A stretch of DNA of 64,000 nt from Selaginella tamariscina (lineage: Eukaryota > Streptophyta > Lycopodiopsida > Selaginellales > Selaginellaceae): the NCBI GenBank assembly GCA_003024785.1, contig PUQB01000607.1, positions 85,819 to 149,818 of the forward strand, in the 5' to 3' direction. Shown one piece after another: positions 6,533 through 51,592 of the stretch; the first letter of the stretch is position 1, and every line of letters begins with the position of its first letter. Position numbers and translations under genes: made by a program. Under the pieces are notes generated by a model. The model saw only the letters and a list, made by a program, of their open reading frames with translations. It searched no databases and was not told the origin of the DNA.

Positions 6533-6590
<58 letters not shown>

Positions 6591-7085: not shown

Positions 7086-7099
7086 CACACACACACACA

Positions 7100-7318: not shown

Positions 7319-7356
<38 letters not shown>

Positions 7357-10908: not shown

Positions 10909-11618
10909 CACCCACCAAGAATTAAATTAGGAATATCACATTAATAATTAAATCTAATTTATTAATTTAATTACATTTCATTTCCACTAATTTAATTTAA
11001 TTGAAATAATTAGGGCATGAGAATAGAATTAATTTAATTAGTTAATTACATTTCAAATATTAATAAATTAAGTTCACCCACCAACTCCAAATGCTAAATA
11101 TTAAATAAATTAATTTTAAATATGCAATCCATTAATTTCATCAGGCTGAGGTTGAACTTTGTTGTCATCATCTTCTTATTCAGTTGTAACTGGGCCTTGA
11201 GGTTCAGGAATATCACTTTAAGCCTTGAGTTTCCTCCTCCTTTTTCAAATGTACTAGTAAGAAAATCTCTTCGTTCCAATTAGGCTACCGGTTGTGCTTT
11301 TCTACTGAAAAAATATGTGTATAATGCAGTCCATACAACCTCATGCTCATGGATCCATAGCTGTCACACCCAAAACCCTAATTAAATTAATGATACTGAC
11401 TGAGTTCAATTAAAAAATTAAGGATTGAACTAATTTAATTAAATTCATTCAATTAAAAAATTGTAATGAACTTAATTGAAAAGAATATTTAATAGGAATG
11501 ATTTTTAATTAAATTAAGATAATTAAATTAAGCTGATTAAATTGGAACTTAATTAGGCTGATTAAAATGTCAATTAAAAAATTAATTGAAATTAGGCTAA
11601 TTTAATTGTTGGTGGGCG
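10909..11618. mobile_element. MITE-like insertion with terminal inverted repeats
   Basis: This is an AT-rich insertion of about 0.7 kb in the second duplication copy. The first copy has only about 60 bp between the same flanking sequences. The ends are inverted repeats: the left reads CACCCACCAAGAATTAAATT and the right, reverse-complemented, reads CGCCCACCAACAATTAAATT. The interior is rich in TTAATTAA and has no convincing gene; a 61-codon frame at 11094-11279 is unrecognised. No clean target-site duplication is visible. Confidence 0.55.
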
Positions 11619-11694
11619 TCTTCCTTAAATCTTAGGATATACATACTAAGACATACTCTGTTTTTCTTACTAGGGTTCCTCGGAGAATGTAGGC

Positions 11695-11728
11695 ATGCGC
11701 AGGGCAGCACAGCCGATGTCACAGGTAC

Positions 11729-11767
<39 letters not shown>

Positions 11768-12205
11768 ACGCACGCACGCACGCACGCACACGCACAGGTA
11801 CCTCGGGAGCTTCTTAAGTTTCTGGATACATCCTCTGCATCTTCTTATTCATCGCTCGAGGAAGATTTGCGCAGATTTCAGCAGCAGCTTACCCCACAAC
11901 AGTCGGCATTGTTCTTAATAATCTTCGCAATTCTGAGCTTGCCAAGTTCTTTTTCGATTGGGCCTCCAATCTTATGGTTGTGATGTATACATATATATAT
12001 GTATGCTTATATATAGACAGACATGTTTAGATACAGCTGGTTTTGGTAAATATATAGTACTCAAATGCAGGTGTTTGAATATGTACACATATATAGAGCA
12101 TATACCCGCAACTATACACATACAAGCACATCATACAAAGAAATATTCATACACGAATATGTATATGTAATATTATAGTACACAAATACCTGCATATCTA
12201 CTTAT

Positions 12206-12257
<52 letters not shown>

Positions 12258-25869: not shown

Positions 25870-27975
25870 GGGGAAATCCACTTCTTGACATCCTAAACTC
25901 TATTTATTTATTGATCGTAGGAAAGCTTAACTCAATCTCGTGGCTTTAACATTTAAAATTTAATATAATTATGTTACATTTACATAATTTTATTTTAAAT
26001 TGTGGAAACTCATAATAATTTAATTTTGTATGTATATGACTATTGTATATACAATTCAATTGCAATGGAGCTATTTTAGGTCTAGATTTATGTAATCCAT
26101 TTTATTATTTATAAAGTTATCAATGTTATTATAAATCAATTTTAAATTATTAATTAATTGGTGAATCATTCGTTACAAGTATCGATGTGTTTGAATGATA
26201 AAAATATGTTATGAGCATGTACATACATTAATTATATAATAAAAATATAATGTGATTAATCATAAGTTAGGTACATTAAAGAAGTGAATCAGACAAAATC
26301 ATTCATAACATAGGCTTAGCACCTCGGTTTGAACCATGTGCATTTAAATTATCTGCTACATCCCCTTTACCTAGATTTGGGTTGGGCCATAAGAAATCTT
26401 ACATGAAGTTGAAACTGGGACACTTTAACAATTATTAAGTTATGTAGCTTATATGTTCATAACTGCAAACTTCATTTGCATTTATAAATACTTTATATCC
26501 ATAGGAACCATAAACACTTAAGAGTCGTTGGTTTGCAAGTTTCACACTCAAAATCTAAGTAGTTCATTGGTTTGCAGTCTCACACTCAAAATCTAAGTAA
26601 TTCAAACATAAATAGCACTTGGATCTAAAATTTTAATTGACCAATCACAGAGTATGTATATATCTTTGTTACACTTGTTTGCGCTCGATAACAAGCATTG
26701 AATGCCAACTAAATTATAAAGTCATATTAAATCATATTAAGAACAATTAAGAAAAAATTAAAACCTAAATTTAAAATTGAAGTTAATTAATCTTGTACAA
26801 GGGAATTATAGGTGAATGATCAATTTGAGAGCATTAATATCTTAAAGCAGCGTGTCAAGATTTTTGTATTGCCGACCACATATTAAATTTCATGTGGTGA
26901 AATGAAGTCATGAGAGGTATATCATGGTTTTCAAGAATAAAAATTGTAAGTGGTGAGTGCATGGGTCTTTGATAGTTCATGGTCCATCTTGCAAACACCT
27001 AGTGATATGGGCAATAGTAGTGCAACTACTAAACGGGTGAGTTATCAAAATATGACAAAGTTACATGCCTACAAAATTGTGGAAGACACTAGGCTAAATA
27101 CAAGAGTATAGGTTTCATACAAGGGTGGCTTGGAAATTAAAGGAAATTGCAATTAAAGCAATCCATTGTGACGATGAATTAGCATATGCAAAGCTTCAGC
27201 TTATTATGAAGCTTTAATCATGAGCAATCCAAGTTTTATAGCATTTTTATAAATTGTTTATGACCTTTGATGCTTGCTTACAAGGAATATTGTACTGTCA
27301 AAATTTCTTACATTTGATGGTATGCACCTCAGTAGAAAATATAAAAGAGGTACATCTCATCTTCGAGGTAATGTACTTTTAATGTTAGCAAATTCATGCA
27401 TGGTAGGTCTTATCAGATTACACATTTTGAGGTTTAAAAGTTGAGGCATGTTTCCAACCTCCTTTTCCACATTAAGCTAAGAGTAACATTGACAGCTAAG
27501 TAAGGCACATTTGTGTCCTTGTCCAATTGTTGTGGAATCTTGATTGACAAGTTATTTTACTAAGTTCTTAAGGGTTATATAGGGGTTCTAGAGGTGGCAT
27601 CTGTGAACCACGTTTGTGGCACTAGGTGTAACTCATGAATCTAAAGGCTATGGCGAGTAACTTACATCTTGGAAATATAACACATAAAATGTGACACTAG
27701 ACTAGATAGCAATGGTCAACATTCGAGCATGCCTTTAGGGTTGTGTTATAAACTTAACGTCAAGGGTTTGGATACTCTAGAAAGTAGGTGTGCTTATGCT
27801 CAATTAGGGTGTTAAGCCTTAAGCATTGGTTTAAGGAAGGTTAAATTTTTGTAACTAGGTGTGCTATTGGCATAGTTAACTAGGGGTATTCTCATTGGGA
27901 TCTAGGGTTAAACAATAAATTGTTTTGTGAGGCACTCACGAGGTTGTTTATTCAGGGTTATCCAAACCTAGTATG
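25870..27975. other. AT-rich intergenic region left of the large element
   Basis: No gene was recognised. A short tandem duplication of about 42 bp lies at 26529-26610 (unit begins TTGGTTTGCA and contains CTCAAAATCTAAGTA). The rest is unique-looking AT-rich DNA. Confidence 0.5.
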
Positions 27976-27999
27976 CAAGTTGTAACTAAAATGGGCATG
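27976..27999 (+). repeat. Left terminal inverted repeat of the large element
   Basis: Reads CAAGTTGTAACTAAAA followed by TGGGCATG. It matches the reverse complement of 42904-42927 except at positions 3 and 16. Confidence 0.72.
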
Positions 28000-28479
28000 G
28001 CTATAGTCCCATTTCCTAATAATTAGCAATTTTAGCTATTTAATTAGCATTTTCTAATATTAAAGGAATATTCTTTAGAATATATGTTTGAAAAGAGAAT
28101 ATTCTTTAGAATATTCTATTTTGTATTCTACCCTTTAATAAATTATAGCATTCATTGAACAAAAATTAATAACATTATAAAAGTAGAATGTATTAAATTA
28201 TATAATATATTGCCTAATATAACAATTAAGGAAGAGCATAAGAGGTACATTATATAAATATTGATGTTGTTATTAAAATATTAATATTTAAATATAACAT
28301 TATTAATTAAAAATTTGTAGTAGTAATAATATATATATAAAATCCTATAATAATATAGTCAATCTTCCATATCATTTTTTAAATTTATATAGTTAAGTAT
28401 ACAATTTGGTACTATTATTAAAGAGTTTATAATAATTATGAATATTAAATATATGATATTTTATAATTTTGTAATTGCT

Positions 28480-31400
28480 TTAAGCTTCAGAAAACATACA
28501 TTCCCTTGCAGTTTTGTTAATCGTGACTTTATCAACGCTTCTTGACATCCACCCATATCGAATGGATTTAACATTTATAAAACATGCTGGGTCTTTTTGA
28601 TTGGGAGACCATGTTTTCTCTAGGCATCCATTATATCTTTCGCTCTCCTTCTCGTGTCGCCTTTTTTGTGGTTTGAACCATGCAACCTTAACAATACTAT
28701 TTTTTGTGATTACTTCAGGTGTGTCGATAATTTGACCCATCCAAATAGGCTGATTATATGACGCATCTGGAGTAATGAGAACCATCATTAGTTTTTGAAG
28801 ATCCTTGCAGCAATCAAAGTATGCTTTAGGTTTTTGGTTCCTTTGTCCAACAAAGTGTGGGGTTTGCACTTCCACATCACTACTGGCTTCTATGTCGTCT
28901 GCTCAGTGATGTCATTTCAATCTCCTCTCGCCACCTTGTTTTAGGCCAAAAGGGTGTTGCAATTCTGTACTTGTGACAGTAGGCCCTTCCAACTCTCGAA
29001 CAACAGTCTCCCAATAGTTGACCACATGCTTATATAGTTCTGAGTAACCAGTTGCCTTATCAGAATTCTTTGGCATCGATTTTTGAACCCATGCCACATA
29101 TTTTTTGATGCCATCAATAATAACCTCTTGTTCCTTGAGCTGGGCACTCAATGGAATAGGGTCTGGTTGTCCTTCTGGGAGAAGTGGCTTTCCATCCTCT
29201 CCACTTTTGAAGAGCATTAAGCCCTCTTTCGGTAACCACTCCTGCTCTGATGGCCGTAACTTGTACTGCATAATAGGTATACCATCTCGTATGGAGAAAA
29301 AGAATTGTAGCGGCACAAGGTGACCAACTAAAGAATCACTCCCTTCTTTTATATACTCCTTGAGAAATTTTTTGAAGTCTGGCACCTCAGTCACAAGCAA
29401 AGCACAACTTTTTTTGGAGATGCAATTTTCAAAAAGATTCATCATATGCGGTAAGGTAAGTGCACTTGTCCTTTTTGTAGAGTTGGAGACCTTGCTGAAG
29501 AACGCATCAATATCTTCATGAGTGTGACCAACCATAAGGAAACTGAGCGTGATTGTTTCAAACACACCTTTGGCAACAAGCATTGACAAGTATGCTAGCA
29601 CATATCTAGAAAATAAAAGTAAGTATGAGCTTGAGAAACCCTTAAGTAAAATGATTTACCTATTTTTGTTCTCGCCTGCACAATTATCCATCTGTAAAAG
29701 CAAATGACGAGGAAGCTTATTTGATGTTGAGGACACATGTACACTATTTGAGCTAGATCCCTCCACTGAACCTGAACTCTCAACAGGGCCATCTGTTTTT
29801 TGTGCAGGTTGCTGACAATGCCTCTCATATTCCCAAGTAGCCTCAAGTGCAGATGTGTTCATGAGAGCATTATGTAAAGGTTGAAGGTGTTGTTTCTTCA
29901 CTTTGAGATCACTGATAGGACTTGTCTGTGAGTGGGCTTCAAGGTTTCTGAAACACATGGCTAACGACCCAATAGTGAAATTGGAGTCGCTAGACCAATG
30001 TGGAAGTGAAAAGTGTCCATATGACTCACAACCGTGTCCATGTGTTAGCACACCTGTCAATGAAATCGGAAGTTTCATGACATTTCCAAGGCACTTTGGT
30101 GTTGCAAAGAGCTTTGGAATGCTGGTCTTTGAATGATCCATCTTGTCATGGATCAAGCACAGGTACTCTGATGGGCGTGACACAGAAAGCATGCGGTGTG
30201 CATAGTACTGAGACCGGCAAGTTTGTTGTGCAATCATGTGGGCCTCCATCTTCCTTTGAATGGTAGTGATCTCCACCAAGGTTTTTGCACAAGCCTCTGC
30301 AGCCTTCAATGATGTACAAGTGTCACACTTAGAAAAGCTAGAGTGTTTTGCAATCTCCACATCCTTAAAATGAGTATTCCATATGTTGTTGAAGGTACCA
30401 GTGCAGATTGCTTGGAGCCCCATCAAACTGAGGCACTTGTTCACATGTTCACACAGTTTCAATTGAGTGTAGATTGAAGGTAAAACCTTGAGATTTTCCC
30501 TGACCCCTGCATTTGTGGTTCGGCATTTGTGAGGCATCCTGTCTGCATTTGCTTCCACAAAAGCCTTGAGTATCTCTATGGCTGCCATGATGTGAGAGCG
30601 GGTTTTGACCAAGCCAGTGTTCCCATGAACTGAGGTTCGCGCTCCATCTAGCCACTCATCCCTCCGACGGTAGAACGTGGTCTTTGGGATCCCGTATATA
30701 CTGTACCAAGCTTTGAAGCAGATGGCCACCTTATTAAATACCATGGATGTACTCTGATAACCTGTGTCCGAGGCCATTCCATCAATACACCCAGTTAGTG
30801 CAGCATATACAAACTCATGCCTTTGCTTTTGGGTGAGCATACGAAAGACATGTCTACATTGGGTAATTTCATTCCGGTCTGCCATCTGACAACACTTCTT
30901 CTTGCAACAGTCAATCGTGGAAATGCTCGTAACACTTTCGGAAGATGTAGGATCCATCTTTACCCTCTTGCTGAAACTTGCAGGGGAAGATCTACAACCC
31001 ATGAATCGCCTTTTTCTTACAATAGGACCAATGCAAGGAACCTCTTCAAATATGAGTTGTTCTTCCGGGTTGTTATTATTGAAATCCAACCCAGAATATG
31101 TTGAACCATCTTGCCGTCTTAATTCAGATGTTCGCCACCTCACGAGGGATCCAGGATACAATGTGCCATTAGGTGAAACCTCTGTCACAACTACACCCAC
31201 GAAGTCGGACCCTAGTTTCTCTTCTGACACTGCTTCCATTGGATTTATAGCTGTGATGATGCCTCTTCCGACTTCAATCTCACGAAGAAAGAGAATCACC
31301 TCATCCATTACAGCAGGCAAGCCATCATCTGGTAAACTCGTGCTACTATTTGTTTGTGACTCTGCATATTCTGTGTCAGCCTTGACTTCATCCAAATTCC

Positions 31401-31607
31401 ACAATACAGGAGAACCCTCCTCAAATTCCATTCCCAGAACCTCAACATCTTGTAAATGGTGTTCACCCATACGTACACACAAGATCCTTGGGCAATATTG
31501 TGACATGATGCATTATTATCTCGAACTTCCACAGTTCCAGTGCCAACTATCTCGTTGTTCCGAAGAAGACATACTTTATCTCCAGTATTAAACATATTGT
31601 CCTGCAC
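28480..31607 (-). CDS. DUF7869-type DDE transposase-like protein
   Basis: Exon 1 runs from about 31607 to 29660, a 54-nt intron spans 29659-29606, and exon 2 starts at 29605. The N-terminus has a small basic beta-rich region (GDKVCLLRNNEIVGTGTVEV) joined across a frameshift near 31510 to the main frame. Mid-protein lies a helical block (KTTFYRRRDEWLDG) and a Cys-containing segment (FSKCDTCTSLKAAE). The putative catalytic core shows acidic residues in IHDKMDHSKTSIPK (about residues 454-457 of the long frame), in QMDNCAGENKNRY at the exon junction (about 607), and in VGHTHEDIDAFFS of exon 2. This spacing and motif set is that of DUF7869 proteins, which look like RNase-H-fold DDE transposases. 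After GGERRLK two in-frame TGAs (28912-28914, 28903-28905) precede a further 130 codons in the same frame. The gene diverges from the palindrome array, which begins 143 bp upstream. Confidence 0.72.
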
Positions 31608-31749
31608 ATAAATAATTGTATTATTTATGATATCTGTTTATGCAATATTTCTAAGAAATCTGAATTACGGTTACTTAATAATATGCATATGCAATAATAC
31701 ATAATTATGTTTAGAGATAATATCTCATGTTTGATTAATACAACTGATG

Positions 31750-32606
31750 GGCGGGATTAATCCCGCCCACGAATCCCTCCGACGAGGAACGGTCGGCGGG
31801 ATTAATCCCGCCGCCGACTCAACCCCTTCGGAGAGAGTCGGCGGGATTAATCCCGCCTTGGACTCCCTCCGACAAGGAAGAGCCGGCGGGATTAATCCCG
31901 CCGCCTCTTCTCCTCGGGGGAGTCCGGCGGGATTAATCCCGCCGACTCTCTCCGACGAGGAAGGTCCGGCGGGATTAATCCCGCCGCCGACTCAACCCCT
32001 TCGGAGAGAGTCGGCGGGATTAATCCCGCCTTGGACTCCCTCCGACAAGGAAGAGCCGGCGGGATTAATCCCGCCGCCTCTCCTCCTCGGGGAGTCCGGC
32101 GGGATTAATCCCGCCGACTCATCCTCGCCGGAGAGAGTCGGCGGGATTAATCCCGCCGGACTCCCCCCGAGGAGGAAGAGGCGGCGGGATTAATCCCGCC
32201 GGCTCTTCCTTGTCGGAGGGAGTCCAAGGCGGGATTAATCCCGCCCACAATTCTTACGACGGGGAATGGGTGGCGGGATTAAACCCGCACATAACTCTCT
32301 CCAAAACTATGATTTCAAAGAGATCTCGGGATAAATCCTGTCCCCAAATCTTTAAAACAGGGAAGTGGTGGCGAGATTAATCCCGCCACCCCTTCCCTGC
32401 CTCCTAAAATGGTTGGCGGGATTAATCCCGCCGACAACTCTTTCTAATAAATTCTGGTAACTCTTCATCAGTTGAGAAGGTTATCGACGGGATTAATCCC
32501 GCCACTCTTTTTCAGTGGCGGAGAAGCATTGCCCGGGAGATGGTGGCGGGATTAATCCCGCCACCTCTTCGAAGAGGCAAAAAGAAATGGCCGGATTAAT
32601 CCCGCC
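31750..32606. repeat. Palindrome array 1 (GGCGGGATTAATCCCGCC)
   Basis: About 19 copies of the 18-bp perfect palindrome lie here. The first twelve are essentially exact, starting at 31750, 31795, 31840, 31885, 31926, 31968, 32013, 32058, 32098, 32140, 32183 and 32228, a 40-45 bp period. The later ones are degenerate. The 22-27 bp spacers are not random: several recur, and several occur in both orientations. It lies immediately upstream of the transposase-like gene. The open frame across it is a by-product of the repeat period, not a gene. Confidence 0.95.
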
Positions 32607-33180
32607 GCCCGGTTAACCTAGAATATTAAGTTAAAAGGATATTTAAACGGATAAATCCCTAACGGAATATATTATAATCCTAATGCATTCCTAAACCCCT
32701 AAATTGTAATTTTAAGAGAGAATGTAAGAGAGTGAATCTTTATAAGTATTTTTAAATTTGTTTATAATACTTACTTGTAAACAGCACTGAAGGCGCCGTG
32801 CTTTCCTATAAAGAATAGCACCCAATTTAATCTCGCCCTGAGATGATCACTATGAAGAAAAAAGAAGATCTAAAGAGTGAAAAATACAGAAATGAAGAAA
32901 CCCTTGCCGGAGAAAGAACCAGATCTGAATTTGAGTGGGAAATTAAATGCATTTTCAAATTTACATGTCAGACCGACAATACATATGTCAGAAATTCAAA
33001 TTTTTTAAAAAGAACAGAAAATAAAATTTAAGATGAGTTGACACAAATATCCGACACTCTGACATATATACTCTCCAGTTCCAATGAGTATTTTAAAATT
33101 GCATTTAATGTTATTCAAGTGATTCAAGCTGTTTAATATTACGAAATTTTAGACTATATTCTACATTCTTAGTATTCAAG
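32607..33180. other. Element interior, non-coding
   Basis: AT-rich with no recognised gene. A 62-codon open frame at 32843-33031 has no family resemblance that I can see. Confidence 0.4.
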
Positions 33181-33189
33181 TATATATTA

Positions 33190-33960
33190 TATATATATAT
33201 ATAATATATACTTATACAATAAATAAATTGATATATTATTATGTATCATTTAAAATATATTCATAGTCTGTTTATTATTATTATTTTCTTAATTACTCGA
33301 GTATTTAGTTTTCATTTCCTAGTATCAATGGGATATTCTTTAATATTTTATTAATATTTGAAGAATATTCTAATATTAAACCTGATTATCATAATTAAAT
33401 TAGTCTTGTTCTTAATTATTGCAGTAATTATTCTACATTTGTATATATTAATGGGATTTTCTCAATTAATTTGTTATTATTTCAAGAATATTCATGTGTT
33501 AAACCTTATTATCAATATTAAATTAATACACACTATGAACATATTTTAAATTATACATAATAATACATCATTTTATCTAATATATAGTCATATATAGTTT
33601 TAATAATATATATATTAATATCATTTCCTTAATTACTTGAGTAATTAATCTTCTTTATATTAATGGGATATTCTTTATTATTTTCTTATTATTCCAAGAA
33701 TATTCCAATATTAAACATGATTATGATAATTAATTTAGTTAATTATTTGAGTACTTAATTTACATTTGTATATATTAATGGGATTTTCTCAATTAATTTC
33801 TTATTATTTCAAGAATATTTCAATGTTAAACCTTTTTATCAATATTAAATTAATATATATTATTAAAACTATATATGGCTATATATTAGATAAAATCATA
33901 TATTATTATGTATAATTTAAAATATGTTCCTAGTGTGTTTATTAATATTTTCTTAATTAT
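33190..33960. repeat. AT-rich tandem repeat, about 335-bp period
   Basis: Two large units (beginning near 33330 and 33667) share AATGGGATATTCTTTA and TGTATATATTAATGGGATTT. Each contains two related sub-units ending in AAGAATATTC-type palindromes. Satellite-like and non-coding. GAATATTC palindromes of the same kind occur near both ends of the element. Confidence 0.65.
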
Positions 33961-34200
33961 TCGATGTTTGTTTTGCACACATATATAAACACAATCATAA
34001 ATTTACACACGCATTACAAGAACTTACAAAAACACATATGCACACACATGCACAACCCTAAACCAAACTGAAGAAATAGGTTGCTTCTTTATTGAAAACA
34101 TCATGTTCAACGCATGTATGATATATGTACTCAATCTGTGTGACTGTATGTAACACATTGAATTTACATGTGTAATATTTATATTAAGCTTGTTGGGAGC

Positions 34201-34231
34201 AAACCCTAAACCCTAAACCCTAAACCCTAAT
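34201..34231. repeat. Interstitial telomeric repeat
   Basis: About four tandem copies of CCCTAAA, the plant telomere heptamer. Related TTTAGGG-like fragments occur at 34690 and 34752 (TTTAGGGTTTA). Confidence 0.85.
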
Positions 34232-34429
34232 ATGTAACACAATGAATTTACTCATGTAATATGTATGTATGTCTGTGTGTATACACGTGTGCATGTATAT
34301 ATGTGTACTCTGTATGTATATATGTGTACTTTCTGTCTCTCTCATACATACACACCATGCATGATCCATGTTAATATGTACTGTCTCTCTTCTCTCAAAC
34401 ATATACACCATGCATGATCTATAATATGT

Positions 34430-35117
34430 ACTCGGTCTCTCTAATATTATGTACTAATATGTGTGTGTCTGTGTGTATACACGTGTGTATGTATATATGT
34501 GTATTAATATATGCAATGTGTATGTATGTATTGATACACATGAAACTTTAACACTCTCATGGACACACATGTTAAATCCCTGCATGATTTATATTTTTGA
34601 GGTGTATGTGATACACCCACGCACACGCACGCGCTAATAATATAATGAAAGAATATTCGTTTAGGGCGAATCTATATTTTATTCTTTTTAGGGTTTAAGT
34701 ATATTCTCAGAAGGAATATTCTATTAGGGTTAATATATATTTAATTCCTTTAGGGTTTAGGTATATTCTTAGGGTTTCAAGAGGCGGCGGCTGTGAAATC
34801 GGCGGCGGCGGCTGTGCACACAGGTGAGATCTGTGTGTGTGTGTGTGTATGTATGTATATATGTATAGGAGTGTGCGTATAAATTTATTTATTAGTTTTA
34901 TCTCTCGCACACACACGCACACTCCTGTGTATGTATATGTGTGTGGTGGGTGTGTGTTTGTTTATCTGTATGATTTTATTTGTTTCGCTCACACACGCAT
35001 ACACACGATATACATATACACATATATATATATACCTATATACATATATACATACATATATTATGTGTACCAGTATCTGTAAATTTTTTTTTATTGATCT
35101 ATCTCTCCCACACACAC

Positions 35118-35169
<52 letters not shown>

Positions 35170-35895
35170 ATATAATATATATAATCAATGCATATTAACA
35201 AATAGTATACAACACTAGTTTATAATATGCTTATATATTCATATGGGTTATATATCTATATACACACATATATATGTGTGTGTGTTTATCTGTATAATTT
35301 TATTTATTTATTAGTTTTATCTCTCGCACACACACGCACACTCCTGTGTATGTATATGTGTGTGTGTGTGTGTTTGTTTATCTGTATGATTTTATTTGTT
35401 CGCTCACACACGCATACACACAATATACATATACACATATATATATACCTATATACATATATACATACATACAACACTAGTTTATATATGCTTATATATT
35501 CACAGACTCTCTCTCTTTCTCTATAGATTATATATCTATATACACACATATATATGTGTGTGTTTATCTGTATAATTTTATTTATTTATTAGTTTTATCT
35601 TTCGCACACACACGCACACTCCTGTGTATATATATGTGTGTGTGTGTTTGTTTATCTGTATGATTTTATTTTGTTTCGCTCACACGCATACACACGATAT
35701 ACATATACACACATATATATACCTATGTACACACATATATTAGGTGTACCAGTACTGTATAATTTTATTTATTTATCTATCTCTTGCACACACACGTACA
35801 CTCCTATACATACATACATACATACATATATATATATATATTATATATATATACCACACATATATATATGTGTGTGTTTTTATCTCGCTAAGCCC
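34430..35895. repeat. Microsatellite-rich tandem block
   Basis: Three to four repeats of a 280-430 bp unit (near 34883, 35308, 35590 and 35770) contain CTCGCACACACACGCACACT, then CCTGTGTATG, long (TG)n tracts and (TA)n/(CATA)n runs. CA and TG tracts face each other, so single strands could fold into long hairpins. No gene; the open frames here are repeat artefacts. Confidence 0.75.
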
Positions 35896-35902
35896 CTCGA
35901 GC

Positions 35903-37770
35903 GGCGGGATTAATCCCGCCGCTAATAGGTTTATAGCTTTGGCGGCGGGATTAATCCGCCGCTATATGGTTGGGGCCATGGCGGCGAGATTAATCCCGCC
36001 GCCGAGCCCCTCACGCAGGTTATGGGCACGGGATTAATCCCGTCGCTCTACGACAAACCGAAGAGCGGCGGGATTCATCCCGCCGCCCATAACCTGTGTG
36101 AGGGCCTCGGCGGCGGGATTAATCCCGCCGCTCACCCATGCCCTGCGTGGAATGCGGCGGGATTTATCTCGCCGGCAATGGCCTGTGTGAAGGTTCTAAT
36201 GGGCGGGATTAATCCCGCCGGATTCGCGCAGGGCATTTACAGGGATGGGCGGCGGGATTAATCCCGCCGCCGAGGCCCTCACGCAGGCCATAGCGGCGGG
36301 ATTAATCCCGCCGCTCTTCGGTTGTCGTAGAGCGGCGGGATTAATCCCGCCGCCCAGGGAATTCACGCAGGACATGAACGGCGGGATTAATCCGGCCCCA
36401 CGCTCATGCCCTTCGCGAGGCGGCGGGATTAATCCCGCCGCTCAGGCACTTCCGCAGGATATAAGTGGCGATTAATCCCGCCCCCACCCATCCCTGTTCA
36501 AAAATGCCGCAGCCAATATATATGTGTGAGCGCATGATTTACGAGAGGGCGGCGGGATTAGCCTCCGAACCTTCATTACCCGGTGGCGAGATTAATCTCC
36601 GAATCTTCATTACCCCATTGGTATGTTGAATCAATCCCAACTAACTCTGTCTGAGATGGAGAAGGTTTACAAAATACCAATGGAGGGAACTGAGAAGGGT
36701 GGTGGGATTAATTTCACCATCCCTTACATGGGGGCGGATTAATCCCCCGCGTACGCATGCCCTGCGCGAATCGGGCGGATTTATCCCGCCGCCATTGGCC
36801 TGCCTGAAGGGCCTAGGCGGCGGGATTAATCCCGCAAGATTTCGCACAGGGCATTGGCGTTCGGCGGGATTAATCCCGCCTCCTAGGCCCTTCCTCGGGC
36901 CTTAGCGGCGGGATTAATCCGCCGGACGCCAATTCCTTGCTCGGAATCGGGCGGATTAATCCCGCCGCCATTGGCCTGTCTGAAGTGCCTAGGCGGCGGG
37001 ATTAATCCCGCCCGATTCCGCAAGGGAATTGGCGTCCGGCGGGATTAATCCCGCCGCATAGGACCGAGTGAAGGCCCTGGGCGGCGGATTAATCCGCCGA
37101 GTCTTCAATGCCTGTTGGAGGAATGAATCCCGCCACCCTTCCTTTGTTTTCTCCATTGGTGAGTCGGACCAATCCCAAACGTTTCTGTCTGAGACGTAGA
37201 AGGTTTTCAACATACCAATGGAGAGAATTGGAAGAGTGGAAATTCATTTAACCATCACTTACATGGTGGGCGAGATTAATCCCGCCTCCTTTCTGGAGTC
37301 ACTGAAGGGGTGTGAGAAATAAATCGCGCAGGGAATTGGCGTCCGGCGGGATTAATCCCGCCGCATAGGGATGAGTGAAGGCCCTGGGCGGCGGGATTAA
37401 TCCCGCCGAGTCTTCAATGCCTGTTGGAGAAATGAATCTCCCACCCTTCCTTTTTCCTCCATTGGTGAGTTGGACCAATCCCAAACGTTTCTGTCTAAGA
37501 CGTAGAAGGTTTACAACATACCAATGGAGGGGACTGGGAAGGGTGGCGAGATTCATTTAACCATCCCTTACATGGTGGGCGAGATTAATCCCGCCTCCTT
37601 TCTGGAGTCACTGAAGGGGTGAGAAATAAATCCTGCCCAGTTCTCTCTGAGACCGAGAAGGGTGGCAAGATTAATTCCGCACTCCCGTTCAAGGCCTCCA
37701 GAAAGGTGGCGAGATTAATCCCGCCCACTCTTTCAGGAGGCATTGAAGGGGTGGCGAGATTAATTTTCCA
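35903..37770. repeat. Palindrome array 2 (GGCGGGATTAATCCCGCC family)
   Basis: Roughly 35-40 exact or degenerate copies of the same 18-bp palindrome as array 1 lie here, mostly spaced 38-47 bp. Variants include GGCGAGATTAATCCCGCC and GGCGGGATTTATCTCGCC. Spacers differ from array 1 but again occur as inverted pairs: GCTCTACGACAAACCGAAGAGC near 36043 and its near reverse complement near 36313. A larger unit of about 320 bp (containing CCATTGGTGAGT and ACCAATGGAG) is repeated at about 37060-37300 and 37380-37625, with a related block at 36600-36720. The array ends about 330 bp upstream of the ParB-like gene. Confidence 0.93.
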
Positions 37771-38103
37771 TGTGAATATATATGTGTATTAGTATATATA
37801 AGTTGCATATCTCATTTTATTTACTTTTATCATCTTATCATAATATTTCGAGTAAAAGCTAGGAATCTATGTAAAACTGTCCAGAGCTCACATTTGTGGT
37901 GGTTCTAAAACGAAATGTTATCTTTCTTTTGCACTAACACAAATGTGAGCTTCGGACAGTTAATTACGTCTACTTCTCTCTGTGTATTATTTTTGTATAT
38001 TCGGGTTTATACAAGTGTGTGTGCGTTTTTATATAATTTATATTTATAGTGTATTATTTTGCAGAAGGACGATTTGATCAAACAAGGAGATCGAGTCATT
38101 AGT

Positions 38104-41100
38104 ATGGAGTCGTCGTCAAATTCTGGGTAAGAATTAAAATAAAATCTGTTATACTCGGATACTTGAACTAATCATTTTTGTATTCAGATGTGGAATTGAG
38201 TGACATTAAAGACAAGAGCAGGAGAAGAGATGGGCAGGGGGATTCTGGAATCAACTTGGCCATATTTTAAGATAAATGGGAAGCGCATTGGAGCAACCAT
38301 GGTTGCTGTCAAATTAACCTCTGTCACATCTCATGGACAAGCAAAACAATGGAAAGTAGATTCGCTAGTCAAGCACCCGAAAGCAGGCTGCGAACCCAGA
38401 TTGGACGATGCTCGACAGATATGCCTTGTTCCATCCAATGTCACGTTCTCGGATCCAGAGGTCGTCAGTTACAACATTAACTCGGGTGGTTTTGTCGACT
38501 TGTGGATAATGACGTTCACGTGTTCACTAATGATGTTGACCTTGGAGTTCTTCTTCAACTCAACGAAAGCCCATCTATGGAGGGGATCCATCTGGATGTC
38601 TACTTCGAAGATCTTCAGACTCATCGAGTAGGTGTATTGTCAGGAGATATTGCTTCACAATACAGAAAATCAGCAAGTGGAGCAATCTTCCCTCTTGACA
38701 TTGAAGAAGAACACAGCGACATCATAAGGGATTGAGAAGGTGGCTCGGTCTCAGGTTCTCTACAGATCACGTTCAATTTGCTTAGGAAGCTTCGGGAGCT
38801 GGAGAGTGTGCCGAGAACACTAGAACAGCTGCAGTCGGGGATCACACATGTTGATTCGGATCGCAAAAGAAAATCATCAATCGTTTTGTCAGCTGCACCT
38901 GTGGCATCTCATGCTGCAATAAGTCACAAGGAAATGATGTTGGATGATAAGATTTATCCTTGTAGGGTTAAATATTGCAGCGTCAACCCAAACTTCAATT
39001 ACAGGCCACTCAACCAGGAACGTGTAGCTGAGCTCATGGAGAAGATGAAGGACGACAATTCTTATACCGTTCCACATAATGCTGTTTTGTGTCCATACTA
39101 TGAAAGAAGGAAGTGCTGACAAAGTCTGGATCACAACACCAGAACAACTCATGAAGATTCAGACGGAGAATAAAAGATCTATCAAGTACTACATCATTAG
39201 TGGCCAGCACACAATAACGGCAGCCCAACGACTTCTCGATGAACACAACAAAGGAACGATGGCAACAAAACTTTCCGAGCATACCCGTGAGAAGCTGACA
39301 AAAAGATCGGCGTTTTTAGCTAAGCCGAATCTCACAATCGAGCAGTACCATAAGTTATCGGCGGAATGGGACGCTGCCGACACCAACCACTACAACAGCA
39401 AAATATGGGAGAAGTTTAAACACACGCGAGCCGTGTGGGAATCTCTTCAGCGACCACAAAGAGCTACCGCAGGGAATACACAATCTGCGGAATACCGGGT
39501 AAGCAAATTGTTTGGGCGGGATTTATCTCGCCGGTATATTAATCTGTCTTTTTCCTCAGAGAGTTGAAGAAATTGCAGCAGTTGATTTTGCCCAGGTGGG
39601 CGGGAAGGAAACATTTCTGATGATGTTGATTTCTTGCCCCGAAGATAGGATCTTTGCCAAATGGTTGGGGATTATGGAATCCTTTTCAAAAGGAACACTG
39701 AAGAAGAAGCAGACAAGTGAAGGGGAGCCCTCAGAAAAGTCTGCAAAGAAACCCAGTAAGACGCCGAAGGCTAAGTCTGTTCAATCTACAAAGGATGTAG
39801 ACAACGATTTCAAGCTCACATGGTTGAAGCCTTTAAATGGAACAACGATGGAGGAGATGGAAGTCTTGGCTGATTTGGTGATCGATGGCAAACTACAAAT
39901 TAATAACAGCAGCCCAACCTCTCCTTTTCATCTCAAGGCAATGGAGTTGAAGACGGTCAGGCATTTCAAGGAGTGGTTGGGAATACACTGCCACAAACTG
40001 GGTTGGACCTCGACTTCAACATATGAAGAGGTTAGCAAATATTTGCATGTGACGAACGATGATATGCTTGTCGAATGGGTGAACCAATCGGAAGATCTAG
40101 GCAAGAATCTATTGCACGCCAACGCCAAAAAGGAGAACATTGGGATGACGCCTTCTCTTATGGCAGTCCTTCAGCAGCGGAGAACCGAATTGAACCTTAT
40201 AAAGGAGGATGCTACGAATCACGACAAGCCCTACAGATGTTTGTTGTTAGATTCGGAGACTTTATGGGGTAACATCACTGCTTGTAGGAAACCGTTTCAA
40301 TTGTTCGTGATGGATCGGCGGGTGTCAAAAAATCTTTCGACAGATAGGGCACTAGAGGATCTGGTGGAGAAACTTAGCCGTGCAAGCATATACATAGAAG
40401 GTATTTATTATTGAATTCATGCTTGCGCTCTTCACTGATACCTACTTTTTCAGGTATTTATTTCTTGATTCTTGCTCATGTCACCGATACTTTTGCCTTC
40501 GCCTTCGCCAAGAAGAATAGACATCGTTGGACAGGATTTTATATGAACGATGCTAATCCCAAGTGCATTGATACTGTTGTTCACTTGGTTGTTAGGAATG
40601 CGCCAAACAATTTCAAGCTTCCAAATGACTGGCCAGGCATCTGTTTGCACTCCAACGGCCCTGAACCTCCATCCGATACACCGATAGGTATGAGTGACGT
40701 ATTCGGCAATGTACGTTATCCAAACATTACAAGTCAAGCGGCACGGAGCATCGTCAACTTGATCAGGGGTCCTCACAGTGATGCGTGGGTTTTTGACTAC
40801 TGCACTAGGGGGTCCGTCTTGAAGGAGTGTTACCTTCGGCATACATGTGTGTTTGCCGTTGAGAAGGATAAGACCATGGTTGAGGACCTGAACAAGTGGA
40901 TAGATTGGGTCTCAACTGAGTACCCCAACGATTCCATAAAGGCGTATTTGAGAAAGTTCCCTCCAGATAAGTGCGATAGCTCTGAAGGTGAATCTGGTTC
41001 AATCTCGGAGTCTGAGAACGAACATCAATCAGATATTAGACCGGAAGTTATCTCGAGGAGTACAGAACATTCGCACACTCCAGGACCCATGGAAACATCA

Positions 41101-41199
41101 ATAGAAGATGCAGAAGATCTTGAACCATCTCACAAGCGGCTTAGACCTTCTTCGCCTCATTCAGAAGGTAATAGCGAAGAAGAATTGATAATGAATTGA
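38104..41199 (+). CDS. ParB-like domain + methyltransferase-like protein of the element
   Basis: A possible start is ATG 38104 (MESSSNSG) before a first intron. The N-terminal part has no recognised fold (STWPYFKINGKRIG; LDVYFEDLQTHRVGVLSGDI). About 38930-39250 looks like a ParB/sulfiredoxin-fold domain: a strand then NPNFNYRPLNQERVAELMEK, ending in IISGQHTITAAQRL, comparable to the GxxR/HRxxAA box of ParB. A basic linker follows (KKPSKTPKAK). The C-terminal part (40454-41199) has DAWVFDYCTRGS and a CVFAVEKD segment, like the SAM-binding motif of beta-class DNA methyltransferases, but no DPPY catalytic motif is visible. An acidic tail closes the protein. Introns are 39499-39559 and 40401-40453. 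Breaks: frameshifts near 38240, 38500 and 39100, and an in-frame TGA at 38733-38735. ParB plus methyltransferase is an architecture known from phages and bacteria; both domain calls are by eye. Confidence 0.55.
39515..39532. repeat. Palindrome copy inside an intron
   Basis: GGCGGGATTTATCTCGCC matches the array palindrome at 16 of 18 positions and lies within the 61-nt intron 39499-39559 of the ParB-like gene. The same variant occurs in array 2 near 36155. Confidence 0.85.
40401..40453 (+). other. Short intron resembling the exon that follows it
   Basis: This 53-nt GT-AG intron starts GTATTTATTATTGAATTCAT. The next exon starts GTATTTATTTCTTGATTCTT and continues with a similar TCACNGATAC stretch. 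The intron looks like a diverged tandem copy of the exon start and is conserved in the second element copy (about 51294-51346). Confidence 0.6.
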
Positions 41200-41471
41200 T
41201 AGAGTGATGAATAGTTGTAAATGAGTGTAACATAAGGCATTTTTGTATATTTCTTTTATATTTGTACAGAAAATAAATTCTCAAGGATTAATGAAGCTTT
41301 TAGTTCAAACATGGGTCACACATTAACAAGGTAAATAATATACCTTGATAATTTTAAGGTCAGCTAATTATCATTTTGCAGATGTAATGAAATAATTGAG
41401 AACATGGATTTTCAGCATTGCCATGAGGTAAGAGAGGGGTTTGGCGACAATTTCTTGTGCCACATGTCAGA

Positions 41472-42642
41472 ATGACAGAGTTCATGCAGGAAATGGATAA
41501 TAATGCAGCTCAAAACATCGTTACCATGGGGGCCACTTCAGTTTTTGCATCATCATTTTTATTGGCTTCAGTTCCGAAATCAATTTCTTCAGCGCATGCA
41601 ATATCTGAATCTTGTAAGGATGATGTACAATTAAATGATGAAGGGATAGGCAACGAAATAGTGGCAACGGATAAATGTGAAAGGGAGCAAACAAGTGATT
41701 TGCAAAGTATTCAAGAGGCAACGCTATCTCATGTTACTCATGGCCATATTGTGTTGTTGGATGTCAATGGTGTTCTGCTTCATCGACAAAGGCCCGAGGA
41801 TAGAAAAACAGAAATCAAACAAGGAGATTTCATTCCTTGTCATGGTAAATTTCGATATGATATTATTTTTCGTCCAGGGTTGGATCGTCTCTTTCAAAAG
41901 CTTAAGGAGATGGGTGCGCTTGTGGGGATTTGGTCATGCATGCAGATTCATAACTTAACACCGCTGTTGAGTTTACTTAAGAAACATTGTAGTGTTGCAG
42001 AAGAGGTGATTCGTAAAGATTGGATTTTTGACCAGCGAATGTGTCATAAACCTCTCGAATTTCACAATATAAGAAAGGAAAGCAAGCCATACTTCTTCAA
42101 GAATGAAAGAATAATTGGGACTCATGGGGAGATCAGTCGCTTAAGGATAAAAGAATGCACATATCTTAGTAGTAGACGACTCTCCTCAGAAGGCTATGCT
42201 CAACCAAAACATTGCTTGTATTCATCCAATCACTTTCGATCCATATTCTGATACCGATATCATGGATGAGCTAGTGAACTACTTGGATACGTGCCTCAGA
42301 AAGAAGAATCTCGAAAATTTTTGTGAGCAGTATCCACCGTATCATACATTTCCTGAAGCTTTTCTTTCTCGTGATATTGAATTTTATAAAATGAAGGATA
42401 GCAACCGGGCGCTTTATAATATTATTCTTAAGGAACGTCAGTTTTTAGATGAGCCTTTATGCAGACCTTCTCTTATCACATCTTATGTATTAACAAGGAT
42501 GGCAACTCCCAATTGCATTCGTGAGAGTGTTAAGTGGCAACAACATCAAGATATTGACCAAAATGATTTGATTAATCCGGAGAGTGATGATTTAGACAAA
42601 ATGAAAAGATTTCTTTGTATGATAGAAAGAAAGTATTTATAA
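41472..42642 (+). CDS. FCP1/NLI-type HAD phosphatase-like protein, element cargo
   Basis: A likely start is ATG 41472 (MTEFMQEMDNN), just after a possible 5' UTR intron. The HAD domain begins GHIVLLDVNGVLLHR; the DxNG form replaces the usual DxD, a variant I associate with plant FCP1-like proteins. It continues with FRPGLDRLFQKLKEMGALVG and WSCMQIHNLTPLL (motif II region), and an ILVVDDSP-type motif (third acidic motif). That last motif is reached only after a two-base deletion near 42147, because the second copy at 49,6xx reads RIMKNAHILVVDDSPQKA in one frame. The frame then runs to TAA at 42640-42642. Family members dephosphorylate proteins such as the RNA polymerase II tail; the substrate here is unknown. 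It lies between the ParB-like gene and the right terminal repeat. Confidence 0.68.
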
Positions 42643-42903
42643 AAAATTAACATGTTGATAAGAAAATGATTTCATTTGTAATTATGTTTGATAGTATTTC
42701 TTCATTATTGTAAACTATTTTTAGAATAATATGAATATTCTAAGATATTTTAGGAATATTCCTTACTAAGTAAGGTTATTGAAGGATTAATTAATTAATT
42801 AATTAATATTTAAGGCTTAATTACATATTAATTAAATGATTAATTAATAATTAAAACTTAAGTATTAATTAGTAATTTATTTTATATTCCCATTTTCACG
42901 TAT

Positions 42904-42927
42904 CATGCCCACTTTAGTTACAACGTG
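42904..42927 (-). repeat. Right terminal inverted repeat of the large element
   Basis: The reverse complement reads CACGTTGTAACTAAAG then TGGGCATG. It pairs with 27976-27999, and an almost identical end sits at 48969-48992 on the truncated second copy. Confidence 0.75.
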
Positions 42928-45900
42928 AATATCGATATATAATATATATTGATATAGATTAATGAGTACAATATATTATAAAAACATACAAATAAATTAT
43001 ATAATATATAATTTATAATAGAAAGATAATCTCTTTCTAAGCTGAAATTACAACTAAAATTATGATCCATGTTATAAAGTGTGTGGCATATTGAAACATT
43101 GGAAGGGGTCTTTGACCCAATAGCAGATAATGATTAAGTTTGACATATTATATATAATCAAAAGATAAATTAGAGATGTGATAAGAGATAATTATAACAC
43201 ACACACACAATGCAATTTAATTTAAATTTATACTTTTATTCTTTCATAGACATGTAGAAACATTTTTGAGTATATTAAATGTATAAGATTTTCTTAAATT
43301 TTGAAAAGAACGCAGTTAATGTTATTTCATTTACAAGAAAATTTCTATTTTTTCTATTAATTAGAATGTTATTTCATTATTTTTTTCTTAAGATATCAAG
43401 GTATAAATCCGTATAAACTGACAAGCCAGAGTTTCTCGACATCGATTTAAAAAGACTTGCAAAGCTACATTTGCTACATTATATTCAAAGGCCCGCCACT
43501 GCCTATGAAGTACACAATCTTATTTTAGATCCATTAACACTATTTAAGAAATTGGCATTAACTACATCCACATTCATAAAATGTAATATATAATGTAGAG
43601 TAATCAATCTTTATCTTTGAATTATTTTCTTTAATGAAAACGAATAACTTAAAGTGTTTATCACTAGTTAACCATGTTATATTAATTAAAAACACACATA
43701 CAACAAACACAACACACACACGTTTTTAATTTATAACAATAAGAGACCATTGTAGACCTGCTAATTAATAGCAAAGAATAATATATGAAGTGCATGTGTT
43801 TATGAAACAATTCACTTACTAAAAAATGAGGATAGAATCTCTAAGACCACGTGGAGGTGACGAGAACATGGACTTGTTGTGAATTGTGGGAAAGATTGCT
43901 CCCCTCTGTATGTAGAATTTTTGCAAATGGAGGAGCAAACATGAGAAACCCCAATGGTGGTGTTATCAACATTGGGTGTAGGGGTTTCAAAGATCACATG
44001 CGGATGAGGGCAACGAGGATGACCAAGGAGATGAAAAGGTCCACTAGGACACAGATGAGAAATGTATAGAAGATACCCAAGTTGGGTCACCCAACACATA
44101 AGACATCCCCACCTCATCAAGAAAATGCAAAAGGTAGCAATGGAAAAGAAAATACATCCCCACCTTATGAAGAAAAAGCATAAGGCAGCAACATAAAAGA
44201 AAAGATGATCTATAGTTATGCTAATATGTAAATTTAATTTTGGGTACCATCCAATTGCGAACACATCTGGTAGTTCTCCACTGTGAGAGCCATGACCAAT
44301 AAAATGCTCAAGGAGAAGATTCAAAACATCTCTTTCAAATCATGCCCACAAACAAGTGTGCAAAAATTAGCGAGCACGTAGCAGTTAGAAACACTTGTGG
44401 AGAATGCATAGGCAAAGGATACCAACACTGCCAGACCCCAAGGAATACGAGACTACACGACAAACCAAGTCATTGAATCTTGCCGAAATAATTAGCAACC
44501 GGTAATTGACAACTGGACAATTTGGTCAAGAAAGAACTCCAAATAAAGCCTATGGTCTTCACAAAAAACCTGCTTAATAGTCCACAACTACTTATCTTCT
44601 TCAACCTTAATAGCATATTAATTCATCTTGTCAAGTGGATTTGAATGGCTTGCACAATCACACACACCATGGATCTTCATGTTGTCCATGAACAAGTGAC
44701 CCATCTATGTGCATAGAGAGATGAACTACCTCTTCAAAACTTGGGGTATTTGGACTTTAGTAAAAAAAAAACATAATGCAAAATAAATGGTTTTGGTGAT
44801 CTGGCAATGTTATCCCTCTTTCGAGAAAGGTAGACTTTGAAAAAAAAACTTATTTTTAAAGTCCAAAAGCCTTTTTTGGTCCTTATAAATAAAAACCCTG
44901 ATAAACATGCCTCAATTCCAAAATCATTTGTTATATACAACTCTTTCAAGTTTTGATAATGGAAAGAACAACATAACGATTGATAAATTAACCGTTGAAT
45001 ATGAAAAATGGCCTCCTACAACCACACAACCAGACCACTTGAGATCCAATTCATCAAATCCATCATTACAACTCAAACTGGTCAGTGATACAAGCCTCAA
45101 CCTAACCATTTGAGACCCAATTCATTCAATCAATCATTAGAATTCAAATTGGTCAATTATATAAACCTCAAATTGTCAGCGATACAAGCTTGGGTGAGCA
45201 GCTTAAAAAACATAACAAAGACAAGAAATTACTTGTGCGATGTAAGAAAACTTTAAATAGATGATTTATTCAATAAAAAAAAGAAAAAATCATCATTGCA
45301 TATTGGCTAGACCTTTATAAAAGAAAAAACCCTAATCATGCAAGATTCAACCTAATTAAAAATAAAAAGTTTATTCAAATTCCAATCTTAAATATAAATA
45401 GCTAGCATATTCGGGCAATTCGCAATAATTGTATATATTCATATAGAATTAAAAATAAATTAAAATAAATATATTTTATTTAAATCATACTAATTATATC
45501 AAAATTAAAATCGAAATATTGAATATGTGGTTATTCTTAAAAATTGTCATGTGAACAATTTAGGATATTCTTAAGAGTTGTTTACATGAGTGTAATAACT
45601 GTAAATAAATACATGAGCGTCTTCTGGAAAATATATTTAGGCTACTTTTAAAAGTTTTCGTGTAAAAAATTAAGGATATTTTCAAAATCAAGTAAACATT
45701 TAGGATATTCTAAAATGTTGTTTATGTAGGATATTTTTTATAATTTGTCATGTAAATAGTTGTACCACTATTAAACCACCCTAAAAGAAAAATGGAGATA
45801 AAATGGTAAAATGGGAATAATTAATAATTCACTAATTATTAAGAAAATTTACAAATTAGATATAATTAATGAAATCAAAATAGATTATAATATTCCTATA

Positions 45901-48900: not shown

Positions 48901-48968
48901 AATATTATTATCATACCATGCAATAATACTCATTGTAAATTTAGATTTGTGATGTAATAGTTATAATG
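42928..48968. other. Six-kb AT-rich spacer between two element ends
   Basis: No gene recognised with confidence. Open stretches at 43812-44324 (minus), 44907-45113 and 47973-48245 (plus) show no family motifs. Two related 60-70 bp stretches near 46215 and 46330 share CTATATGTAGT and TCTTCACATATAC. The spacer separates inverted copies of the element's right end. Confidence 0.5.
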
Positions 48969-49293
48969 CACGTTGTAACTAAACTGGGCATGATACGTGA
49001 AAATAGGAATATAAAATAAATTACTAATTAATACTTAAGTTTTAATTATTAATTAATCATTTAATTAATATGTAATTAAACCTTAAATATTAATTAATTA
49101 ATTAATTAATCCTTCAATAACCTTACTTAGTAAGGAATATTCCTAAACTATCTTAGAATATTCATATTATTCTAAAAATAGTTTACAATAATGAAGAAAT
49201 ACTATCAAACATAATTACAAATGAAATCATTTCCTTATCAACATGTTAATTTATTTATAAATACTTTCTTCCTAACTATACAGAGAAATCTCC

Positions 49294-50265
49294 TCATTTG
49301 TCTAAATCATCACTTTCCGGATTAATCAAATCATTTTGATCAATATCTTGATGTTGTTGCCACCACTTAACACTCTCAGAAAGAAAAGCTTCAGGAAATG
49401 CATGATGCTCACAAAAATTTTCGAAATTCTTCTTTTTGAGGCACGTATCCAAGTAGTTCACTAGCTCATCCATGATATCGGTATCAGAATATGGATCGAA
49501 AGTGATTGGATGAATACAAGCAATGTTTTGGTTGAGCATAGCCTTCTGAGGAGAGTCGTCTACTACTAAGATATGTGCATTCTTCATTATCCTTAAGCGA
49601 CTGATCTCCCCATGAGTCCCAATTATTCTTTCATTCTTGAAGAAGTATGGCTTTCCTTCCTTTCTTATATTGTGAAATTCGAGAGGTTTATAACACATTC
49701 GCTGGTTAAAAATCCAATCTTTACGAATCATCTCTTTTGCAACACTACAATGTTTCTTAAGCAAATTCAACAGCGGTGTTAAGTTATGAATCTGCATGCA
49801 TGACCAAATCCCCACAAGCGCACCCATCTCCTTAAGCTTTTGAAAGAGACGATCCAACCCTAGACGAAAAATAATATCATATCAAAATTTACCATGACAA
49901 GGAATGAAATCTCCTTGTTTGATTTCTTTTTTCCTATCCTCGGGCCTTTGTCGATGAAGCAGAACACCATTGACATCCAACAACACAATATGGCCATGAG
50001 TAACATGAGATAGCGTTGCCTCTTGAATACTTTGCAAATCACTTGTTTGCTCCCTTTCACATTTATCCGTTACCACTATCTCGTTGCCTATCTCTTCATC
50101 ATTTAATTGTACATCATCCTTACAAGATTCAGATATTGCATGCGCTGAAGAAATTGATTTCGGAACTGAAGCCAATAAAAATGATGATGAAAAAACTGAA
50201 GTGGCCCCCATGGTAATGATGTTTTGAGCTGCATTATTATCCATTTCCTGCATGAACTCTGTCAT
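49294..50265 (-). pseudogene. HAD phosphatase-like gene, second copy
   Basis: Start MTEFMQEMDNN at 50265. It matches 41472-42642. TGA at 49882-49884 replaces the CGA found at the same codon in the first copy. The third motif (ILVVDDSPQKA) is in frame here, unlike in the first copy. About 160 bp equivalent to roughly 42368-42525 are deleted, with short CGTGA matches at the deletion edges in the first copy. It ends early at the equivalent of SDDLDK. Confidence 0.8.
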
Positions 50266-50539
50266 TCTGACATGTGGCACAAGAAATTGTCGCCAAACCC
50301 CTCTCTTACCTCATGTCAATGCTAAAAATCCATGTTCTCAATTGTTTCATTACATCTGCAAAATGATAATTAGCTGACCTTAAAATTATCAAGGTATTTT
50401 ATTTACCTTGTTAATGTGTGACCCATGTTTGAACTAAAAGCTTCATTAATCCTTGAAAAATTATTTTCTGTACAAATATAAACGAAATATACAAAAATGC
50501 CTTATGTTACACTCATTTACAACTATTCGTCACTCTAAC

Positions 50540-51578
50540 AATTCATTAACAATTCTTCTTCGCTATTACCTTCTGAGTGAGGCGAAGAAGGTCTAAGCCG
50601 CTTGTGAGATGGTTCAAGATCTTCTGCATCTTTTATTGATGTTTCCATAGGTAATGGAGTGTGCAAATGTTCTGTACTCCTCGAGATAACTTCCGGTCTA
50701 ATATCTGATTAAAGTTCGTCCTCAGACTCCGACATTGAACCAGATTCGTCTTCAGAGCTATCACACTTATCTGGAGGGAACTTTCTCAAATACTCCTTAA
50801 TGGATTCGTTGGGGTAGTCAGTTGACAACCTATCTATTCACTTGTTCAGGTCCTCAACCATAGTCTTATCCTTTTCAACGGCAAATACACATGTATGCCG
50901 AAGGTAACACTCCTTCAAGACGGACCCCCTAGTGCAGTAGTCAAAAACCCACGCATCACTGTGAGGACCCCTGATCAAGTTGACGATGCTCCGTGCCACT
51001 TGACTTGTGATGTTTGGATAACGTACATTGCTGAATACGTCACTCTCACCTATCGGTGTATCGGATGGAGGTTCAGGGCTGTTGGAGTGCAAACAGATGC
51101 CTGGCCAGTCATTTGGAAGTTTGAAACTGTTTGGCGCATTCCTAACAACCAAGTGAACAACCGAATCAATGCACTTCGGATCAGCATCATTCATATAAAA
51201 TCTTGTCCAACGATGTTTATTCCCTTAGCAAAGGAGAAGGCAAAGGTATCGGTGACATGAGCAAGAATCAAGAAATAAATACCTGAAAATGTAGATATCA
51301 GTCAAGAGTGCAAGTATGAATTCAATAATAAATACCTTCTTTGTACATGCTTGCATGGCTAAGTTTCTCCACCAAATCCTCTAGTGTCCTGTCTGTCGAA
51401 GGATTTTTTGACACCTGCCGATGCATCACGAACAATTGAAACGGTTTCCTACAAGCAGTGATGGTACCCCATAAAGTCTCCGAATCCAACAACAAACATC
51501 TGTAGGGCTTGTCGTGATTCTTAACATCCTTAAGGTTCAACTCGGTTCTCCGCTGCTGAAGGACTGCCATAAGAGAAG
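50540..51578 (-). pseudogene. ParB/methyltransferase-like gene, C-terminal part of second copy
   Basis: Matches 40152-41199. The methyltransferase-like motif (DAWVFDYCTRGS, CVFAVEKD) is retained. TGA at 50838-50840 replaces a Trp codon (LNKW in the first copy), and the acidic tail has further stops. The intron equivalent to 40401-40453 is present. The ParB-like domain is absent because the copy is truncated. Confidence 0.8.
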
Positions 51579-51592
51579 GTGCCCACAAAGAA

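Follow-up and report, generated by a model that had tools for sequence, protein, structure and literature searches.

A high-copy, most likely Sola-like DNA transposon with two internal palindrome arrays and accessory genes

What kind of mobile element, if any, lies between the two inverted ends found in a 64,000-nucleotide stretch of DNA (the window; C957:85819-149818 in a 300.7-Mb assembly)? The segment in question (27973..42930, no strand assigned) is 14,958 bp long, and its extent is set by a pair of terminal inverted repeats (TIRs) and by the 4-bp target-site duplications (TSDs) that stand at the same boundary in other copies. It has defined ends, belongs to a high-copy family in which half of the paired ends have an exact 4-bp TSD and one empty site is seen, and contains an intron-bearing transposase-like gene. 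We read it as an autonomous DNA transposon of the cut-and-paste type, hosted by a photosynthetic eukaryote and most likely one of the large members of Sola, and give this reading, in which Sola is compared by description, a probability of about 0.7. That the host is photosynthetic is indicated by the chlorophyll a/b-binding family, which has 26 matches in the assembly, and by one frame whose best solved relatives are LHC proteins.

The initial annotation had described 24-bp inverted ends with 22/24 identity, and these are present (CAAGTTGTAACTAAAATGGGCATG from 27976; inverted, CACGTTGTAACTAAAGTGGGCATG to 42927). Its proposed extent of 27976-42927 stands as far as the inverted ends go but not as a boundary, as the true ends extend another 3 bp outward (ATG...CAT). 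In full, the 27-bp terminus reads ATGCA[A/C]GTTGTAACTAAA[A/G]TGGGCATG, with the left TIR (ATGCAAGTTGTAACTAAAATGGGCATG) at 27973..27999 on the + strand, placed from the bases preceding the core in fetched left ends, and the right TIR at 42904..42930 on the - strand. Over these 27 bp the window's two ends are identical at 24 positions and the usual ends at 25; the right tip reads GTGCAT in 22 of 24 paired copies and GTGAAT in the window copy. The window contains three occurrences of a 21-bp core of the end (at 27979, 42904 inverted and 48972), compared with a mean of 0.00 in 100 shuffles. The left-end query began at 27976, so the core match in the fetched loci is by selection; the three bases ahead of the core, however, lay outside the query, and they read ATG in 19 of 20 fetched left ends (ATG precedes CAAG) and ATA in the other.

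A search of the assembly with the inner 24-bp end pattern gave 1,212 + 1,155 = 2,367 occurrences and none for the control. These exact ends therefore amount to about 1,180 pairs, and we estimate the family at roughly 1,000-1,200 copies; with lengths of up to 15 kb, these would account for an estimated 5-6% or so of the assembly. The left 125 bp matched 40 places at 100% over the full length plus one partial (best 40 of 701 candidates), and the right 500 bp matched 40 places at 99-100% identity (best 40 of 1,421). A DNA search with the right 148 bp gave no match, although the window itself contains that sequence.

Target sites were read from 24 paired ends, made up of all 19 neighbouring convergent left/right pairs less than 20 kb apart among 100 listed ends, together with the window, L018, L023, L027 and C167; one row, C80a, which is the outer right end in a nested pair, was left out before counting. 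Sixteen of the 19 neighbouring pairs are 13.7-15.1 kb long. An exact 4-bp TSD stands outside ATGCA...TGCAT in 12 of the 24 (for example GTAT, AAGA, ACAT and TCTA), compared with 3 of 552 mismatched pairings and at most 5 in 20,000 shuffles. Because these exact matches stand outside ATGCA, we reject a model in which the terminus lies at CA[A/C]G and the preceding ATG is a target preference. Counting one terminal base gives 20 matches, a consequence of the TIR's own palindromic TGCA, and a TGCA-target model is ruled out by the same exact matches and by the empty site. The latter comes from the nested copy C80, which is inserted in the right-hand portion of another copy with a TTAT duplication; window 42670-42695 shows the corresponding empty target. 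The window copy has no TSD and an altered right tip, C1a has a 5-base match with an altered left tip, and in C167 a TSD would fit by eye given one extra base. Recombination between copies, or misjoining of near-identical repeats, could account for the pairs that lack a TSD.

How uniform is the family? We fetched 20 left-end loci, picked for perfect end matches and thus biased to young copies. Most are collinear with the window element over the fetched sequence, at 97-99.7% across the first ~4 kb and mostly 87-99%, with a few as low as 80%, in the later and array blocks; L018 and L023 carry internal deletions and keep both ends. Over the left 3.65 kb, 19 copies (18 of the 20 fetched loci plus the window) have a median pairwise identity of 99.7% and a minimum of 98.7%, gaps set aside. 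The same 19 copies are rich in insertions and deletions (indels): 159 events, 116 of them single-base, match the 159 substitutions in number, a point that weighs for the view that the locus holds only simple repeats or misassembly and no element. Against that view stand the 2,367 ends, the TSDs and the empty site; the TSDs refute it, and we regard it as next to impossible. Three loci hold 96 of the 159 indel events. L009, L010 and L028 have 47, 21 and 28 events in 3.65 kb, a load that suggests that parts of the assembly still contain uncorrected errors from long reads. The window copy has frame damage in all three of its genes, some of which may be assembly error, because indel events equal substitutions among the 19 copies.

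The transposase gene (28480..31595, - strand) was delimited from Pfam PF25273 (DUF7869), its frames, its homologues and a model of the homologue P0003. The Pfam match is above cut-off in both exons, which are separated by a 54-bp GT-AG intron (29659-29606), and the window copy has frame changes between 31560 and 31449 and near 28910. Acidic residues occur in the motifs HDKMD (in 30136-30156), QMDN (29683-29694) and GHTHEDID (29506-29529). The suggestion that DUF7869 proteins are DDE-like is strengthened by the predicted structure of P0003, which resembles Mos1 and retroviral integrases, and the protein looks like a DDD transposase. It would cut at the ATGCA termini and insert with a 4-bp stagger, and its Tudor- and BAH-like domains may read chromatin. 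The C-terminal barrel of the P0003 model (residues 935-1049) has a likeness to BAH domains and MazF; a barrel shared with the large accessory protein described below is only suggestive (hhalign P 0.014, probability 3%). Among copies, transposase changes comprise 48 replacement and 2 stop against 31 silent, where the expected ratio is 2.6. For DUF7869, which plants and animals share as a domain of unknown function, the element offers a likely function and a mobile-element anatomy.

The transposase, the large protein and the phosphatase-like protein gave nothing useful against PDB sequences, the transposase alignment had no match in viral contigs, and a literature text search for the GHTHED motif returned no relevant title. 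Three contigs with DUF7869 in prokaryote genomes (L050, L051 and L052), filed under cyanobacterial and Bacteroidetes metagenome-assembled genomes, are probably eukaryotic contamination; they have no accessory gene by tblastn (best E 0.45) and no palindrome, and nothing in them approaches the TIR with fewer than 7 mismatches in 21.

Sola transposons, in the passages of PMC10741241 consulted (citing Bao et al. 2009), have a DDD transposase, a 4-bp TSD, TIRs of 11-1124 bp and very variable termini, with some elements >15 kb; they are present in the moss Physcomitrella and uncommon in flowering plants. The present element resembles them in its DDD-type transposase, its 4-bp TSD (seen in the 12 pairs above, absent at the window's own copy), its 27-bp TIRs and its size, and differs in its accessory genes and palindrome arrays, which those passages do not mention. 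Alternatively, the transposase may belong to a superfamily that has 4-bp TSDs but no name as yet, the family then being a plant branch of a DUF7869 lineage that animals share. Several points count for this and against Sola: among 84 DUF7869 homologues the 25 with a named organism are 10 bryophyte and 15 animal rows (corals, molluscs, a sponge, echinoderms and a ribbon worm), DUF7869 goes unmentioned in the literature searched, and Sola was compared by description, not by sequence. On the other side, the testable Sola features (DDD, 4-bp TSD, variable termini and size; PMC10741241) all fit. We therefore hold an unnamed superfamily to be a genuine but lesser possibility, and retain Sola as the most likely home of the element.

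Other superfamilies disagree with the termini or the TSDs. CACTA (En/Spm) elements have a CACTA-like terminus and a 3-bp TSD, and are excluded by termini of ATGCA and a TSD of 4 bp. En/Spm also has a DNA-binding accessory protein, TnpA, and subterminal motif repeats, and is thus like the present element in combining a transposase, a DNA-binding accessory protein (putative here) and a repeated motif, although the arrays here are internal. Mutator/VANDAL elements have a TSD of about 9 bp, whereas 0 of the 24 pairs match over 6, 7 or 8 bases. The TSDs found (GTAT, AAGA, ACAT, TCTA and others) likewise differ from TTAA, the target of piggyBac and Sola3. Kolobok, which also targets TTAA (PMC9587614), is excluded in the same way.

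Between the divergent genes lies the palindrome-array centre that the initial annotation had reported. The motif is an 18-bp palindrome, GGCGGGATTAATCCCGCC, for which the window has 46 matches at ≤3 mismatches, against a mean of 0.00 over 100 shuffles; all 46 are inside the element. A left array of 18 units, mostly about 45 bp apart, lies upstream of the transposase gene (31750..32606), and a right array of 27 units lies upstream of the accessory genes (35903..37725); the remaining palindrome, with 2 mismatches, is inside a putative intron of the large accessory gene (39515..39532). None of the three is assigned a strand. Spacing is 39-49 bp in 34 of 44 cases, and information content is 1.76 bits per position inside the palindrome, partly by construction since units were picked at ≤3 mismatches, against 0.21 outside. 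The half-site GGCGGGA may resemble the E2F sites of plants and animals. An 86-nt inverted repeat (33528-33938), 95% complementary and with 239 nt separating its arms, lies in AT-rich sequence between the arrays.

Exact GGCGGGATTAATCCCGCC sites number 27,128 genome-wide (control 0). Since the window copy has 26 and L027 has 23, they correspond to some 1,040-1,180 full-copy equivalents. Among the first 100 sites listed, which all fall on contig C1, 95 are within 10 kb of a listed end or DUF7869 match. The window units retain 82 of 90 palindrome CpGs, with no change to TG or CA; over the 20 fetched loci plus the window, where the units are paralogues, 949 of 1,048 are kept, with 31 TG/CA and 68 other. 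The two arrays have CpG observed/expected ratios of 1.10 and 1.01, compared with 0.40 for the transposase gene and 0.64 for the remainder of the window. Across the left 3.65 kb, CpG sites show C to T at 7.4 per 1,000 versus 2.4 elsewhere, while G to A has no such difference (8 and 3 changes).

What would bind these palindromes? The large accessory gene (38200..41199, + strand), read by eye from open frames and GT-AG junctions, has several open exons with putative introns at 39499-39559 and 40401-40453. It was read through in two copies, the window's and L027, both frame-damaged at different places (in the window near 38480, 38730 and 39113). The ParB-like box that earned it its label (IISGQHTITAAQRLL, 39193-39237) is visible by eye, without a homologue or profile match. 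The protein had nothing at E <= 1e-3 among 5.8 billion proteins and no match in Pfam, NCBIfam or viral contigs; one PHROG of unknown function reached E 0.02, and DUF1015 reached E 0.0088, below cut-off. By tblastn, two pieces of it against phages and the ParB-like piece against plasmids gave chance matches or none. The methyltransferase-like label found no profile match or other search support; the structure model of that piece has a pLDDT of 36. The cargo-carrying family originally proposed is partly supported: it stands in its ends, copies, TSDs and empty site, with its methyltransferase unsupported and its ParB likeness seen by eye only.

The large protein would be a sequence-specific DNA-binding regulator, perhaps loading on the two arrays and on its own intron. 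The pairing of a ParB-like box with palindromic sites recalls, by eye, bacterial ParB/parS, from which the element differs in that its box lacks profile or structural support. A closer parallel may be found in the Arabidopsis VANDAL transposons, whose motif arrays are bound by VANC anti-silencing proteins and where VANC21 motifs also occur in VANDAL21 introns (PMC5735166). As there, one family combines an accessory gene with short-motif arrays in noncoding parts and introns; the TSD length differs, the motif here is an 18-bp palindrome, and binding and loss of methylation would be predictions for the present element. A loaded regulator might keep the element expressed as VANC proteins do on VANDAL arrays, and the arrays may help to keep it active. 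The most likely reading is a Sola-like autonomous element that encodes a sequence-specific regulator of its own. Alternatively, the palindromes may be bound by the transposase or a host factor, or be structural DNA, with the large gene doing something else. Unit number varies between copies (many compared loci being partial) and the ParB-like motif was seen by eye, both of which weigh against a dedicated regulator, whereas the motif in the accessory gene's putative intron, as in VANDAL21, favours one; we would not bet on another binder, but it is quite conceivable. Rather more doubtful is the fuller scheme of a ParB/parS-like or VANC-like system, in which the element encodes a ParB-fold protein that occupies the arrays of the CpG-bearing palindrome and keeps ~1,000-1,200 copies unsilenced, alongside a transposase reading histone marks via Tudor-like domains. 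After VANDAL, the two arrays provide another case, open to experiment, in which a transposon has evolved binding-site arrays for itself and possibly an anti-silencing protein as well.

The third gene (41427..42642, + strand), placed by Pfam PF03031 (NIF) and like-scoring rows in the genome, had been called HAD phosphatase-like. The profile supports this (33.6 bits in the window frame and 47.7 in the joined frame, cut-off 21.8; frameshift near 42150), but motif I reads DVNG (within 41748-41780) where NIF/HAD phosphatases have a catalytic DxDx. We take the product to be a phosphatase relative by profile whose activity is doubtful, and an accessory protein that is perhaps not catalytic. Could the right-hand genes be passively captured host pieces (Pack-type cargo)? 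The DVNG motif, and ordinary host NIF genes scoring up to 167 bits, count for capture and against an element-owned gene. However, tblastn of the protein against the 8 best host NIF loci gave no significant similarity (best E 1.4), and by hand count 20 rows among the matches listed share a 340-codon frame at 45.8-45.9 bits; from their score, and from similar rows beside listed ends (C1, C2, C25), these are taken for element copies. Passive capture is thus unlikely. The protein had nothing at E <= 0.01 among 5.8 billion proteins, and a review of plant gene capture makes no mention of Sola, ParB, phosphatase or methyltransferase.

The second right end reported in the window is real. A truncated copy of the right-hand part only (48966..51579, - strand) matches at 95% identity, 40151-42329 and 42518-42930 aligning to 51579-48966. 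In a second alignment the likeness between right ends breaks off at 42927/48969, the terminus reported originally. Elsewhere in the window, 2072-12223 consists of tandem ~5-kb duplicates, with pieces 75-93% identical, that contain UDP-glycosyltransferase-like frames (8724-9524; Pfam UDPGT, 76 bits), and a PPR frame lies at 12097-12609. The last stretch, 62001-64000, has a GC content of 52% and an AT skew of 0.21 and differs from most of the flank.

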